In this document: positions 29,727-49,177 of the stretch, piece by piece
How positions within the stretch are numbered: position 1 is the stretch's first letter
Layout of the letters: each line of letters begins with the position of its first letter
Source: Allomuricauda sp.
Lineage (GTDB): Bacteria; Bacteroidota; Bacteroidia; Flavobacteriales; Flavobacteriaceae
Reading direction: 5' to 3'
Assembly: GCF_028280385.1 (NCBI RefSeq)
Contig: NZ_JANQLX010000017.1
Span: forward strand, 186,001-250,000
DNA: 64,000 bases
The notes under the pieces: generated by a model
Database searches by the model: none
What the model was told of the DNA's origin: nothing
Seen by the model: only the letters and a program-made list of their open reading frames with translations
Position numbers and translations under genes: made by a program

Positions 29727-29731
29727 GTTTA

Positions 29732-29787
29732 GAGTCATGACCCAAGACTATGGACAAAAGACTACAGACCCAAGACTAAAGACTCAA
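29732..29787 (+). repeat. Heptamer-period intergenic array A (8 in-phase units)
   Basis: GAGTCAT GACCCAA GACTATG GACAAAA GACTACA GACCCAA GACTAAA GACTCAA. Confidence 0.9.
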
Positions 29788-29847
29788 CCTAAATATAATT
29801 TAAACCTTTTTCCATTACCTTAGTCCAAGCATCAAATCGACAAAAAA

Positions 29848-34217: not shown

Positions 34218-34314
34218 GCAATTAACAATTACCGATCATCACTACGTATTTCGCATTCAGCATTCAACATTTAGCATTTGGCATTTGGCATTTGGCATTT
34301 GGCAATACTATAGT
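34206..34314 (+). repeat. Heptamer-period array C1, overlapping the upstream stop codon
   Basis: From 34217: AGCAATT AACAATT ACCGATC ATCACTA CGTATTT CGCATTC AGCATTC AACATTT AGCATTT GGCATTT x4 GGCAATA, all in one 7-nt phase. Confidence 0.9.
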
Positions 34315-34377
34315 TAATCCCCAAACAATCTAAGAATCCAACAATCCAACCCACCTCACATCACATTCCCATCTTCC

Positions 34378-34466
34378 AACGCCAACCCTTTAACCTGCAA
34401 CCTCTAACTTTTAACCTCTAACTTCTAACTTAACCTCGAACCTCTAACTTCTAACCTTTTCCCTTA
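34378..34466 (+). repeat. Heptamer-period array C2 (CTCTAAC-type)
   Basis: CTTTAAC CTGCAAC CTCTAAC TTTTAAC CTCTAAC TTCTAAC TTAAC CTCGAAC CTCTAAC TTCTAAC from 34388. Confidence 0.9.
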
Positions 34467-34506
34467 ACCTTGCCTCCATATTATTTGAATTACATAACTT
34501 TGAGGT

Positions 34507-40088: not shown

Positions 40089-40212
40089 ACGAGAGACTAT
40101 AGACCCAAGACATTGCACGTTAGACTTTAGACTTTAGACGAGAAACAATAGATTCAAGACTATAGACCCAAGACTTTGGACTTTAGACTTTGGACGAGAC
40201 TACAGACTACAA
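40081..40212 (+). repeat. Heptamer-period array B, overlapping the purL stop codon
   Basis: GACGTTA GACGAGA GACTATA GACCCAA GACATTG CACGTTA GACTTTA GACTTTA GACGAGA AACAATA GATTCAA GACTATA GACCCAA GACTTTG GACTTTA GACTTTG GACGAGA, then phase-shifted CTACA GACTACA. Confidence 0.93.
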
Positions 40213-43285: not shown

Positions 43286-45691
43286 ATGAAAAGGCATATC
43301 AATAAAGTTGCCGTGATCGGCTCCGGCATCATGGGCAGTGGCATAGCTTGTCATTTTGCCAACATCGGGGTCGAAGTATTATTGTTGGACATTGTCCCCA
43401 GAGAACTGAATGAAAAGGAAAAGTCCAAAGGACTGGGCCTTGAAGACAAGGTGGTCCGTAACAGATTGGTAAACGATTCATTGGCGGCGGCCCTTAAATC
43501 AAAACCTTCCCCCATTTATCACAAAAAATTTGCATCGCGCATATCTACAGGAAATTTGGAAGATGACATTGCCAAGATAGGTGAAGTGGATTGGATCATT
43601 GAAGTGGTGGTGGAAAGGCTCGACATCAAAAAGCAGGTGTTTGAAAATCTGGACAAGCATCGCAAGCCAGGAACCCTGATTACTTCCAATACATCTGGAA
43701 TCCCCATTAAATTTATGAGCGAGGGAAGAAGTGACGATTTTCAGGCCCACTTCTGTGGCACCCACTTTTTCAATCCGGCGCGATACCTAAAACTGTTTGA
43801 AATCATACCTGGACCCAAAACTTCCCAAAAAGTATTGGATTTCTTGAACGGATATGGTGAGCAGTATCTGGGTAAGACCTCGGTTATTGCCAAGGACACC
43901 CCAGCCTTCATAGGTAACCGCATCGGAATTTTCAGTATTCAAAGTCTGTTCCACGCGGTGAAGGATTTGGGAATGACCGTGGAAGAAGTGGATAAACTTA
44001 CGGGACCGGTTATTGGCAGGCCCAAATCGGCCACCTTTAGAACTGTGGATGTAGTCGGATTGGACACTTTGGTGCATGTAGCAAACGGAATCCATGAGAA
44101 CTGCAAGGAAGATGAACGCTTGGAATTGTTCTCATTGCCAGACTTCACCAAGACCATGGTGGACAACAAATGGCTGGGCAGTAAATCGGGACAGGGATTC
44201 TATAAAAAAGTAAAGGACGACAAGGGCAAAAGTGAAATCCTCACCTTGGATTTGGATACCATGGACTATCGCTCCAAAAAGAGCGCCAAATTCGCTACCC
44301 TTGAACTCACCAAAACAATAGACAAGGTAGTGGACCGCTTTTCGGTGTTGACTGCCGGAAAGGACAAAGCTGGGGAATTTTACCGTAAGAGTTTTGGGGC
44401 GTTGTTCGCCTACGTATCCCATCGTATCCCTGAGATCACGGACGAACTCTATAAAATTGACGATGCCATGAAAGCCGGTTTTGGCTGGGAACATGGTCCC
44501 TTTCAAATTTGGGATGCCGTGGGCTTGGACAAAGGCCTGGAATTTGCCAAGACGGAAGGTTTGGAAGTGGCCTCATGGGTAAATGACATGAAGGAGGCTG
44601 GCATAACCTCCTTTTACTCCGTAAAGGATGGTGCCACCTATTTTTATGACATTCCCAAAAAATCTGTTGAGAAGGTTCCGGGACAGGATGCCTTTATCAT
44701 TCTGGACAACATTAGAAAATCCAAGGAAGTATTCAAGAACAGTGGGGTTGTAATAGAAGATTTGGGAGATGGTATTTTAAATATAGAATTCCAATCCAAA
44801 ATGAACACCATTGGAGGTGATGTGTTGGCCGGATTAAATAAGGCGGTGGATTTGGCCGAAAAGGACTTTCAGGGCTTAGTGGTCGGAAACCAAGCTGCCA
44901 ACTTTTCAGTAGGAGCCAATATTGGAATGATTTTTATGATGGCGGTGGAACAGGAGTACGATGAGCTCAATATGGCCATCAAGTATTTCCAGGATACCAT
45001 GATGCACATGCGATACTCCTCCATACCAACTATTTCTGCCCCACACGGAATGTGCCTGGGCGGAGGGTGTGAACTTTCTCTGCATGCTGATAAGGTTGTG
45101 GCCGCTGCGGAGACTTATATAGGACTGGTGGAGTTTGGAGTTGGCGTGATTCCCGGTGGTGGTGGTTCCAAGGAAATGGCCTTACGAGCCTCCGACACCT
45201 TCAGGAAGAATGATGTGGAACTGAATGTATTGCAAGAGTATTTCCTAACCATAGGTATGGCCAAAGTATCTACATCGGCCTATGAAGCTTACAATTTGGG
45301 CATCCTTCAAAAAGGAAAAGATGTAGTGGTGGTCAATAAGGACCGACAAATAGCCACTGCCAAAGCCCATGCAAAATTGATGGCCGAAGCCGGGTATACC
45401 AAACCGGTAAAACGTAAGGATGTTAAGGTACTTGGTAAGCAGGCGCTTGGTATGTTCCTGGTAGGGACCGATTCCATGGAGGCGGGTCATTATATTTCAG
45501 AACACGACAAAAAGATTGCTGATAAATTGGCCTATGTGATGGCAGGAGGGGATTTGTCTGAAGCCAGTTACGTTACCGAGCAATATTTATTGGATTTGGA
45601 ACGGGAAGCCTTTCTTTCCCTGTGTACTGAAAGAAAAACTTTGGAACGAATTCAGCATATGCTGAAGACCGGGAAACCCTTAAGAAATTGA
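43286..45691 (+). CDS. 3-hydroxyacyl-CoA dehydrogenase / enoyl-CoA hydratase
   Basis: VAVIGSGIMGSGIACHFANIGVEVLLLDI; HFFNPARYLKLFEIIPG; crotonase region GMCLGGGCELSLHADKVVAAAETYIGLVEFGVGVIPGGGGS. Confidence 0.95.
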   Translation: MKRHINKVAVIGSGIMGSGIACHFANIGVEVLLLDIVPRELNEKEKSKGLGLEDKVVRNRLVNDSLAAALKSKPSPIYHKKFASRISTGNLEDDIAKIGEVDWIIEVVVERLDIKKQVFENLDKHRKPGTLITSNTSGIPIKFMSEGRSDDFQAHFCGTHFFNPARYLKLFEIIPGPKTSQKVLDFLNGYGEQYLGKTSVIAKDTPAFIGNRIGIFSIQSLFHAVKDLGMTVEEVDKLTGPVIGRPKSATFRTVDVVGLDTLVHVANGIHENCKEDERLELFSLPDFTKTMVDNKWLGSKSGQGFYKKVKDDKGKSEILTLDLDTMDYRSKKSAKFATLELTKTIDKVVDRFSVLTAGKDKAGEFYRKSFGALFAYVSHRIPEITDELYKIDDAMKAGFGWEHGPFQIWDAVGLDKGLEFAKTEGLEVASWVNDMKEAGITSFYSVKDGATYFYDIPKKSVEKVPGQDAFIILDNIRKSKEVFKNSGVVIEDLGDGILNIEFQSKMNTIGGDVLAGLNKAVDLAEKDFQGLVVGNQAANFSVGANIGMIFMMAVEQEYDELNMAIKYFQDTMMHMRYSSIPTISAPHGMCLGGGCELSLHADKVVAAAETYIGLVEFGVGVIPGGGGSKEMALRASDTFRKNDVELNVLQEYFLTIGMAKVSTSAYEAYNLGILQKGKDVVVVNKDRQIATAKAHAKLMAEAGYTKPVKRKDVKVLGKQALGMFLVGTDSMEAGHYISEHDKKIADKLAYVMAGGDLSEASYVTEQYLLDLEREAFLSLCTERKTLERIQHMLKTGKPLRN

Positions 45692-45745
45692 AAATGTTGA
45701 ATTTTAAATTGACGCATTCAACATTAAACATTAAACATTTAAAAT
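45681..45745. repeat. Palindromic heptamer array D (no ORF inside), overlapping the upstream stop codon
   Basis: Right arm CATTCAA CATTAAA CATTAAA CATTTAA (45715-45742); inverted left arm; perfect 10-bp stem AATGTTGAAT (45693-45702) / ATTCAACATT (45716-45725). Confidence 0.85.
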
Positions 45746-45752
45746 CACGTAC

Positions 45753-46943
45753 GTGAAAACAGCATACATAGTAAAAGCATACAGAACAGCGGTTGGAAAG
45801 GCTCCGAGGGGATTGTTCCGATTTAAAAGACCGGATGAATTGGCCGCGGAGACCATTGAATATATGATGAAGGAACTGCCCAATCTGGATAAAAAACGCA
45901 TTGATGACGTTATTGTTGGAAACGCCATGCCCGAGGCTGAACAAGGTCTGAACATGGCCCGTCTCATCTCTTTGATGGGACTGAACATCGAAGATGTCCC
46001 AGGAGTGACCGTTAATCGCTATTGTGCATCAGGTTTGGAGACCATCGGGATCGCCACGGCCAAAATCCAATCTGGAATGGCGGATTGTATAATTGCAGGA
46101 GGTTCGGAAAGCATGAGCTATATCCCTATGGGGGGCTATAAACCCACCCCGGATTATGCCACGGCAAAAGAAGGTAATGAAGACTATTATTGGGGCATGG
46201 GACTTACGGCCGAAGCTGTGGCACAACAGTTCAAGGTTTCGCGCGAGGACCAGGATGTGTTTGCCTATAACTCCCATATGAAAGCACTAAAAGCACAGGA
46301 GGAAAACAGGTTCCAAGAGCAAATTGTGCCCATTGAAGTGGAACACACCTTTGTAAATGCCACCGGTAAAAAAGAGACCACTTCATATACCGTAAACAAG
46401 GATGAAGGTCCACGAAAAGACACCAACATCCCTACCCTCAACAAACTAAGACCGGTGTTTGCGGCAGGAGGCAGTGTCACCGCTGGGAACTCTTCGCAAA
46501 TGAGCGATGGCGCGGCCTTCGTAATGGTGATGAGCGAGGAAATGGTCAAGGAACTCAATTTGGAACCCATTGCCCGCTTGGTCAACTATGCTGCGGCAGG
46601 GGTAGAGCCAAGAATTATGGGAATTGGGCCCGTAAAAGCCATACCCAAAGCTTTGAAACAGGCAGGTCTTAAGCAAGATGACGTGGAATTGATAGAATTG
46701 AATGAAGCTTTCGCTTCCCAATCGCTGGCGGTGATCAGGGAACTTGGGCTCAATCAGGAAATTGTCAATGTCAATGGCGGAGCCATAGCGCTGGGGCATC
46801 CTTTGGGCTGCACTGGAGCCAAGTTATCCGTTCAGCTTTTTGATGAAATGCGCAAACGCAATATGAAAGGCAAATACGGTATGGTGACCATGTGTGTGGG
46901 AACCGGCCAGGGAGCTGCTGGGATTTATGAATTTCTGAATTGA
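45753..46943 (+). CDS. Acetyl-CoA C-acyltransferase (thiolase, FadA-like), GTG start
   Basis: [57 protein letters not shown]. Confidence 0.95.
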
Positions 46944-47362
46944 GCAATTCTGAGTTTTGAATGTTGGAAAGTTGAATGAAATGAAGGAGGACAACATTAT
47001 AGTTAGAAAAACATTTGAATTTTCACTTTCAATAATAGATTTATTCAAAGATTTAAAACGAAATAAGGAATTTGTTCTTTCAAAACAATTATTGAGAAGT
47101 GGTACCAGTATTGGAGCCAACGTAAATGAAGCAACAGCAGCGGAGTCCAAAAAAGACTTCATTCATAAAATGGGCATTGCACCTAAAGAAGCCAGAGAAA
47201 CAAAGTATTGGTTGAAATTATTAAATAAATCAAAATTAGGTGGGATTGACTGTGACAGGGAAATACATGAAATTGATCACATTATTAACATATTGACAAA
47301 GATTGTAAAAACGTCACAACAGAATTTGTACAAATCCAACATTTAAAATTTAACATTCAAAA
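46943..47362 (+). mobile_element. Candidate IVS-like element: four-helix-bundle gene bracketed by inverted heptamer arrays
   Basis: TTTTGAATGTTGG (46955-46967) vs CCAACATTTAAAA (47336-47348), 12/13 inverted; also AACATTCAAAA (47352-47362), 11/11 inverted. Confidence 0.6.
46981..47346 (+). CDS. Four-helix-bundle protein (23S rRNA intervening-sequence protein / S23 / Avd-like family)
   Basis: KTFEFSLSIIDLFKDLKRNKEFVLSKQLLRSGTSIGANVNEATAAESKKDFIHKMGIAPKEARETKYWLKLL; RSGTSIGANVNEA is characteristic of the family. Confidence 0.92.
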   Translation: MKEDNIIVRKTFEFSLSIIDLFKDLKRNKEFVLSKQLLRSGTSIGANVNEATAAESKKDFIHKMGIAPKEARETKYWLKLLNKSKLGGIDCDREIHEIDHIINILTKIVKTSQQNLYKSNI

Positions 47363-47371
47363 AAATATGCC

Positions 47372-49177
47372 ATGGAAACGCTAAATAAAGACATCCTGCG
47401 AGGAGGCCAATTCCTGGTCAAAGAAACCCTTTGCGACGACGTATTTACCCTTGAGGATTTAAACGAGGAACAGAAAATGATGCGCGAAAGCACCAAGGAA
47501 TTCGTGGACCGCGAACTATGGGCCCATTGGGAACGTTTTGAGCAAAAGGACTATGCCTACACCGAGGAAACCATGCGTAAGGCCGGAGAACTTGGATTAT
47601 TGAGCATTGCCGTTCCAGAAGCATATGGAGGAATGGGAATGGGCTTTGTTTCCACCATGTTGGTCTGCGATTACATTTCTGGAGCCACCGGTTCGTTCAG
47701 TACGGCATTTGGTGCCCATACAGGAATTGGTACCATGCCTATTACCTTGTACGGCACAGAGGAACAAAAACAAAAATATGTACCCAAGTTGGCTACCGGT
47801 GAATGGTTTGGTGCTTACTGCCTAACAGAACCAGGAGCTGGGTCAGATGCCAACTCGGGAAAAACCAAGGCCGTTTTGTCCAAAGACGGTAAACACTACA
47901 GCATTACCGGACAAAAAATGTGGATTTCCAATGCTGGGTTCTGTAATCTGTTCATTGTGTTTGCCAGAATTGAGGACGATAAGAACATTACTGGCTTTAT
48001 CATTGAAAATGACCCGGAAAATGGAATCACCCTGGGAGATGAGGAAAAGAAACTTGGAATCCACTCCTCCTCTACCCGTCAGGTGTTCTTCAACGAGACC
48101 AAGGTACCTGTGGGAAATATGCTTTCCGAAAGAGGAAATGGTTTTAAAATTGCCATGAATGCCTTGAACGTAGGTCGAATTAAGTTGGCGGCCGCCTGTT
48201 TGGAAGCCCAGCGCCGTGTTACCACCGAAGCTACCAAATATGCCAACGAACGCATCCAGTTCAAGACCCCTATCATAAATTTTGGGGCTATCAAGGCCAA
48301 AATTGCGGACATGGCTACCAATGTTTATGCAGATGAATCGGCCTGCTATAGAGCGGCCAAAAATATACAGGACAGAATTGCTATTCGCGAAGCGGAAGGT
48401 AATAGCCACCAAGAAGCGGAATTGAAAGGTGTTGAGGAATACGCCATTGAATGTTCCATTTTAAAAGTGGCGGTTTCAGAGCATGTGCAGCATACTACGG
48501 ATGAGGGCATCCAGATATTTGGAGGGATGGGATTCAGTGCAGACACACCAATGGAATCTGCATGGAGAGACGCCCGTATTTCCAGAATCTATGAAGGCAC
48601 CAACGAAATTAACCGAATGCTTGCCGTGGGCATGTTGGTCAAAAAGGCCATGAGAGGTCATGTTGACCTACTGGGTCCTGCCACTGCTGTGGGCGAAGAG
48701 CTTATGGGAATCCCTTCTTTTGACACCCCGGATTTTTCTGAATTGTTTTCAGAAGAAAAAGACTTGATCGCCAGATTGAAAAAAGTCTTTTTAATGATAG
48801 CGGGTAGTGCGGTCCAAAAGTTTGGTCCTGCCTTGGAAGAGCACCAAATGCTGCTGATGTCGGCTGCCGATATCCTTATACAGGTTTATTTGGCAGAATC
48901 CACTATATTGCGAACCGAGAAAAACGCCAAGCGATTTGGGGAAGATTCGCAGGCGGCACAAATTGCCATGAGCAAATTGTATTTGTACCGCGCTGTGGAT
49001 ATTATCAACCAAAAAGGAAAAGAGGCGATAGTTTCATTCGCGGAAGGCGACGAACAACGTATGATGCTTATGGGACTAAAACGTTTTACGAAATATACAA
49101 ATCAACCCAATGTCGTGGCACTCCGCACCTTGGTTGCGGATAAGGTTGCAGCGGATAACGGGTATACCTTTGACTAA
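47372..49177 (+). CDS. Acyl-CoA dehydrogenase (VLCAD/ACAD9-like, about 600 aa)
   Basis: GAYCLTEPGAGSDANSGKTKAVLSKDGKHYSITGQKMWISNAGF; GIQIFGGMGFSADTPMESAWRDARISRIYEGTNEINRML. Confidence 0.95.
   Translation: METLNKDILRGGQFLVKETLCDDVFTLEDLNEEQKMMRESTKEFVDRELWAHWERFEQKDYAYTEETMRKAGELGLLSIAVPEAYGGMGMGFVSTMLVCDYISGATGSFSTAFGAHTGIGTMPITLYGTEEQKQKYVPKLATGEWFGAYCLTEPGAGSDANSGKTKAVLSKDGKHYSITGQKMWISNAGFCNLFIVFARIEDDKNITGFIIENDPENGITLGDEEKKLGIHSSSTRQVFFNETKVPVGNMLSERGNGFKIAMNALNVGRIKLAAACLEAQRRVTTEATKYANERIQFKTPIINFGAIKAKIADMATNVYADESACYRAAKNIQDRIAIREAEGNSHQEAELKGVEEYAIECSILKVAVSEHVQHTTDEGIQIFGGMGFSADTPMESAWRDARISRIYEGTNEINRMLAVGMLVKKAMRGHVDLLGPATAVGEELMGIPSFDTPDFSELFSEEKDLIARLKKVFLMIAGSAVQKFGPALEEHQMLLMSAADILIQVYLAESTILRTEKNAKRFGEDSQAAQIAMSKLYLYRAVDIINQKGKEAIVSFAEGDEQRMMLMGLKRFTKYTNQPNVVALRTLVADKVAADNGYTFD

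Follow-up and report, generated by a model that had tools for sequence, protein, structure and literature searches.

Across 70 species of one genus, a single operon gap occurs as bare, empty and full alleles. The full alleles hold an S23 gene whose arms have unit families of their own, and the empty allele studied here, an array of 7-nt units (heptamers), is matched to the neighbouring S23 gene. The reading to which we lean, and only tentatively, is that this array belongs to a family of gap cassettes with heptamer arms, as an empty and non-autonomous member that shares its unit with the S23 gene next door.

The array and its surroundings

The array lies between the HAD/ECH and thiolase genes, which are fat-breakdown genes. 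The gap is 61 nt long, from the stop codon TGA (45689-45691) to the start codon GTG at 45753. All coordinates refer to the window, which is the whole 64-kb stretch of DNA analysed. The features of this part of the operon are as follows.

43286-45691, plus strand: HAD/ECH gene (fusion of 3-hydroxyacyl-CoA dehydrogenase and enoyl-CoA hydratase), upstream flank; Pfam 3HCDH_N, 3HCDH and ECH_1, ORF list
45687-45709, minus strand: left arm of the empty array, outward units AATTTAA AATTCAA CATTTTC; repeat search
45693-45702, no strand: left half of the perfect 10-bp stem, AATGTTGAAT; repeat search
45715-45742, plus strand: right arm, four heptamers CATTCAA CATTAAA CATTAAA CATTTAA, with the right half of the stem at 45716-45725; sequence and repeat search
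45753-46943, plus strand: thiolase gene, GTG start 10 nt after the last heptamer; Pfam Thiolase_N/C
46946-46968, minus strand: left arm of the S23 element of the next gap; repeat search of 46700-47600
46978-47346, plus strand: S23 gene (four helix bundle protein, PF05635/TIGR02436); ORF list and domain search
47335-47360, plus strand: right arm of the S23 element, TCCAA CATTTAA AATTTAA CATTCAA, which overlaps the stop codon of the gene; sequence and repeat search
47372-49177, plus strand: acyl-CoA dehydrogenase (ACAD) gene, downstream flank; Pfam Acyl-CoA_dh

The right arm and the mirrored left arm described in the initial annotation were recovered on reading the sequence and its reverse complement. 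A repeat search returned the perfect 10-bp stem that it had proposed, with a loop of 13 nt, and the ORF list contains no frame between the arms, as had been stated. Since the HAD/ECH stop codon lies inside the left arm, the array overlaps the end of the upstream gene, again as claimed. Longer inverted arms of 23 nt with 78% identity were also found (45687-45709 and 45723-45745). The 7-nt periodicity is far beyond chance. The array is a tandem run of intergenic 7-nt units, as in arrays of the TAACTGA/STRR type, and scores 19/21 at lag 7; in five Markov copies of the window, the mean number of scores of at least 18 was 0. The stem is less striking than the periodicity, as an equal stem occurred in 28 of 2000 local Markov shuffles. 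Three consecutive CATTNAA units are found at only two places in the whole genome. A match to the units flanking the S23 gene at 46.9-47.4 kb had also been claimed. It holds at the level of the unit family (local score 16.5), but the order of the units differs.

The frame of the S23 gene in the next gap is open from a TTG at 46957, and an ATG is present at 46978. The closest solved structure to its protein is 2rld (E 7.8e-26). We know of no enzymatic activity of S23.

Alternative states of the two gaps

Thiolase served as the query in a search of 73 genomes of the genus, and the comparison of the HAD/ECH–thiolase gap (UP) and the thiolase–ACAD gap (DN) rests on 70 junctions from 70 species. The sample consists of one draft assembly per species. 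With states called by length and class labels that are rough, UP is bare in 11 of the 70 species (1 nt between stop and start), carries an empty array of 40-86 nt (mostly 61-86 nt) in 32, and in 25 is filled by an S23 gene and its heptamer arms (423-446 nt in total); the other two (L025 and L052) have different inserts. DN is bare in 26, empty in five and full in 36, with S23 remnants in two and one unreadable case. Comparison of this junction between genomes, proposed as a check in the initial annotation, thus reveals a polymorphic site in 70 genomes, where the cassette is absent, empty or provided with S23.

The genes in these two inserts differ from each other. In L025, the UP gap (545 nt) is filled by a gene of approximately 178 amino acids. 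In L052, where related genomes have an S23 element, the gap (601 nt) contains an unrelated gene for 170 amino acids. It has no Pfam match; its MPDHVHG motif recalls Y1 transposases. The insert starts with TAGATTTTGGAC, as do the S23 elements of the related genomes.

The states change often. On the tree of the flanking genes, the UP state requires at least 21-22 changes and the unit class 37, and of the changes in the "empty" label, 13 are imposed by branches with good support. Close relatives (for example L056/L066, L078/L076 and L073/L070) often differ in cassette state and unit family while their flanks are still alike. Flank divergence has its native level once past approximately 30 nt on the upstream side, and on the downstream side already at the start codon. 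The bare gap reads TTA AGA AAY TAG A ATG. No target-site duplication was visible by eye when the bare gap (TAG-A-ATG) was compared with filled gaps.

The last three to four codons of the upstream gene vary with the cassette type at both gaps (45677-45691 and the homologous sites in L018-L087). At the HAD gap this coupling is mostly synonymous, and it is gone beyond codon -5. The penultimate arginine is encoded by CGN in all 17 genomes with the two main UP S23 classes and by AGR in 50 of the 51 others; 11-12 of 12 independent pairs agree (p < 0.001). Several UP elements start with TTGCGA, which forms a palindrome with the codons CTTCGCAAC. The coupling possibly arises from a cassette boundary inside the upstream gene, from short co-conversion, or from selection to pair with the left end of the cassette. 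Relaxed constraint on ribosome binding was also considered. TTA AGA is present in 11 of 11 bare-gap species, which fits this idea; however, genomes with different elements also differ from one another at these codons, and relaxed ribosome binding is therefore rejected as the whole cause.

S23 elements and their arms

The arms of 97 S23 elements have a period of 7, with a lag-7 identity of 0.46 against 0.295 in shuffled sequences (z 37.6). The two arms of an element also belong together. The reverse-complemented left arm fits its own right arm with a score of 8.95, compared with 6.68 for permuted pairs (sd 0.27), and the best of 5000 permutations reached 7.60. S23 genes are present in 116 of the 148 Bacteroidota genomes sampled. 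The arms of 30 S23 genes from these genomes have the same period (z 13.4, 10.9 and 7.7 at lags 7, 14 and 21), and six of the 30 genes lie beside HAD/thiolase homologues. Together, the phylum-wide period and these shared neighbours suggest that the association of S23 with heptamers is old, and perhaps also the occupation of the HAD/thiolase site itself.

S23 proteins cluster by gap. The 24 UP rows require three changes (21 when shuffled) and the 32 DN rows three (26 when shuffled). S23 lineages are thus site-specific, with no simple jumping between gaps, yet they are gained and lost across species. The number of S23 copies per genome ranges from 0 to 15 within the genus (G000-G072).

Unit sharing between empty arrays and S23 arms

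The tests of unit sharing cover one operon and a fifth of one genome. About half of the 32 UP empties, including the array studied here, match the arms of DN S23 elements (scores 15-21.5), and two of the five DN empties (L027 and L065) match those of UP S23 elements (17.5 and 18.5). None of the five DN empties matches DN S23 arms. About a dozen empties of the AATCC type match the S23 arms of neither gap. Within a genome, the UP empty and the DN S23 element share units more than expected (11.58 vs 9.67 permuted, p 0.0044, in a permutation that ignores relatedness), and in the CATT class such sharing is seen in three of three genomes. Sharing between two full S23 elements of the same genome was rejected, with a score of 6.85 against 6.83 permuted (p 0.48).

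A sample of approximately 842 kb, a fifth of the genome, was used for arrays elsewhere. For 18 arrays in this sample, none of them an S23 arm, the fit to the arms of the ten S23 genes of the same genome exceeds that to S23 arms of other genomes (12.17 vs 11.03, sd 0.38), a result reached by none of 5000 random sets, relatedness being ignored. Most heptamer arrays in this genome have a single orientation and do not adjoin S23 genes. In the window, an rRNA methyltransferase-like gene and an AraC-type gene are separated by a gap (34218-34506) that contains three heptamer families in a row (CATTTGG/CATTNAA, AATCCAA and CTCTAACTT), all in one orientation and with no S23 gene. The last of them, the CTCTAACTT family array at 34399-34460, fits the arms of the S23 gene at G000:C2:141025 with a score of 24. 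Single-orientation arrays between genes are also found at 40089-40200 and 29727-29790 (TTTAGAC and AAGACTA families).

Palindromic empty CATTNAA arrays are also seen in Acidobacteriota, Chloroflexota and Chryseobacterium. Those in distant phyla include short-loop palindromes (L198, L213, L231, L241, L254, L265, L267, L275 and L301); the units read outward in nine loci and inward in four others, usually with no S23 gene nearby. Association of S23 genes with the CATTNAA arrays of other phyla was rejected, as such a gene lies within 1.2 kb at only one of 119 loci in a search with an HMM built from one genus. This near-absence either weakens a strict requirement for S23 or shows the limit of the HMM.

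Proposed mechanism and alternative explanations

In the mechanism that we propose, a full cassette carries an S23 gene flanked on both sides by arms that read outward and share one 7-nt unit family, and an empty cassette has only the arms. Fixed operon gaps can be bare, empty or full, and the cassette would be swapped precisely between the upstream stop codon and the downstream start codon. The S23 protein may recognise its own heptamer, as DNA or RNA, and maintain, copy or regulate arrays in trans. An empty array would then be a dependent partner, in this case of the S23 gene one gene downstream; the match between the array unit and a cassette one gene away suggests that the S23 protein may act on empty arrays at a distance. 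In cis, the A-rich right arm that ends at the start codon is likely to serve as a leader for the downstream gene. It would replace TTA AGA AAY TAG A ATG, which in the bare gap appears to double as gene end and leader, and this supply of a leader probably makes the cassette tolerable. A wider version is doubtful. It holds that each S23 lineage owns one unit family and one operon gap and builds, moves or regulates the matching empty palindromic arrays in trans. Such a system, selfish or regulatory, would have two components; S23 genes resident in one genome would have distinct units, and the rRNA IVS would be one branch.

The initial annotation had offered the array as a deletion derivative of an S23 element or as an ancestral repeat into which an S23 ORF can insert. 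The empties of UP are unlike the S23 arms of their own gap and about half are like those of the next gap, which argues against both. In the deletion reading, a former S23 element in the UP gap lost its ORF and left its arms, and the unit families have drifted or the full ancestors have been lost. S23 decay is common, as frameshifted or stopped genes are found in L031, L036, L063 and L086, and at the DN gap L020 (152 nt) and L068 (119 nt) are true deletion remnants that keep C-terminal S23 codons and an array. Nevertheless, the 25 full UP elements and the 32 empties have no unit family in common (best scores 7.5-13), and the empties are tidy, with no S23 remnant detected by eye, unlike L020 and L068. 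A relic at UP is thus less likely, though relics exist elsewhere, and we consider this reading unlikely for the array. As for the ancestral repeat, the unit families differ between the empty and filled states of one site. The array could also be a local microsatellite. In that case slipped-strand copying, together with template switching at quasi-palindromes, would generate the heptamers in intergenic DNA that is free of constraint, and S23 elements would be only one such setting. Many-unit intergenic arrays in this genome have 475 matches at period 7 and 0-21 at any other period, an excess of at least 20-fold, and are mostly in one orientation; fourfold CATTNAA arrays without S23 occur in many phyla, and the difference between L018 and L031 amounts to a single 7-nt unit. 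However, slippage gives no reason to expect alternative cassettes sharply placed at one gap, two arms of an element that match, S23 lineages tied to a site, or units common to an empty array and to S23 in the next gap. On balance it is an improbable account.

Exchange between species at the same gap, the site-specific S23 lineages and the upstream codons that travel with the element type would all be expected if whole junctions were swapped by homologous recombination, as plain horizontal allelic exchange with no element-encoded activity. The tracts would be unusually short for species 10-15% apart, given the native flanks on both sides, and we regard this explanation as distinctly improbable. 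Selection for an RNA hairpin that uncouples HAD and thiolase expression, by RNase III-type cleavage or attenuation as in the rRNA IVS, is very improbable. The inverted arms do lie between co-directional genes, RNase III excises the IVS of Coxiella, which has an S23 ORF and heptamers (PMC4990558), and the CAAGA-type empties have a 14-pair consensus stem in common. Against this, the array as RNA folds at -7.5 kcal/mol, which is no more stable than shuffled sequences (z = -0.79), and the hairpin is ordinary for AT-rich sequence of such kind. Alignment folding found no consensus structure in the AATCC-type empties, and no compensatory change was seen in the AATCC-type or CAAGA-type alignment. Searches of the array for Rfam families and for a terminator (GC-rich stem with a T-run) gave no match. 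A hairpin as the main function is rejected on these results. Our analysis favours what may be a non-autonomous, S23-associated array, loosely like REPIN/RAYT.

Relation to known systems

The nearest described element to the full form is the IVS of the Coxiella type. The IVS in the 23S rRNA of Coxiella burnetii is 428 nt long (IVS range 428-444 nt), with an S23p ORF and GACAGAT heptamers in its 5' arm, and is excised by RNase III (PMC4990558). The elements described here resemble it in the S23 ORF, in length (423-446 nt for full UP elements), in terminal inverted repeats, in heptamers in the 5' arm and in their sporadic, horizontally spread distribution. They differ in location, as the IVS lies inside 23S rRNA helices and these elements lie between protein genes of an operon; the array itself is between the HAD/ECH and thiolase genes. 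The ends of the array can pair as terminal inverted repeats do (the 10-bp perfect stem and the 23-nt arms), without unusual stability. It also lacks an S23 ORF (PF05635), whereas the next gap has one.

STRR repeats are heptamer arrays of the same broad kind as TAACTGA. As repeats, TAACTGA arrays are the nearest described relative. They are reported from cyanobacteria, Beggiatoaceae and Bacteroidetes in a paper with no mention of S23 (PMC4679880). Both kinds are intergenic runs of 7-nt units with several unit families per genome, and both occur in Bacteroidetes. TAACTGA/STRR arrays are mostly direct repeats upstream of genes, whereas the array here is palindromic and sits at a gap where S23 is exchanged.

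REPIN/RAYT systems consist of small intergenic palindromes with dispersed empty copies and a related gene flanked by the same repeats (PMC3116915). A small intergenic palindrome, candidate empty copies and a gene flanked by the same repeats are likewise found here. The gene flanked by the same units is, however, S23 and not a RAYT-type (Y1) transposase, and the units are short tandem heptamers. Dispersed arrays share units above random, yet most have a single orientation. The "MITE-like" reading of the initial annotation is possible. The array is short and non-coding, has inverted arms and is related to a larger coding element, with which it has its unit family in common. In contrast to MITEs, no target-site duplication was seen in the gap comparison, and the coding element, the S23 element of the next gap, has no known transposase or demonstrated transposase role.

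Significance

In the literature outside subscription papers, we came across no account of S23 cassettes with heptamer arms in gaps between the protein genes of operons. S23/IVS elements have been known for decades, and to our knowledge neither a function of the protein nor a mechanism of spreading has been established. With the alleles described here, the question of what S23 does becomes a concrete one, namely whether each S23 binds or acts on its own heptamer. In the S23-rich Bacteroidota, the answer could also explain part of the intergenic heptamer repeats.
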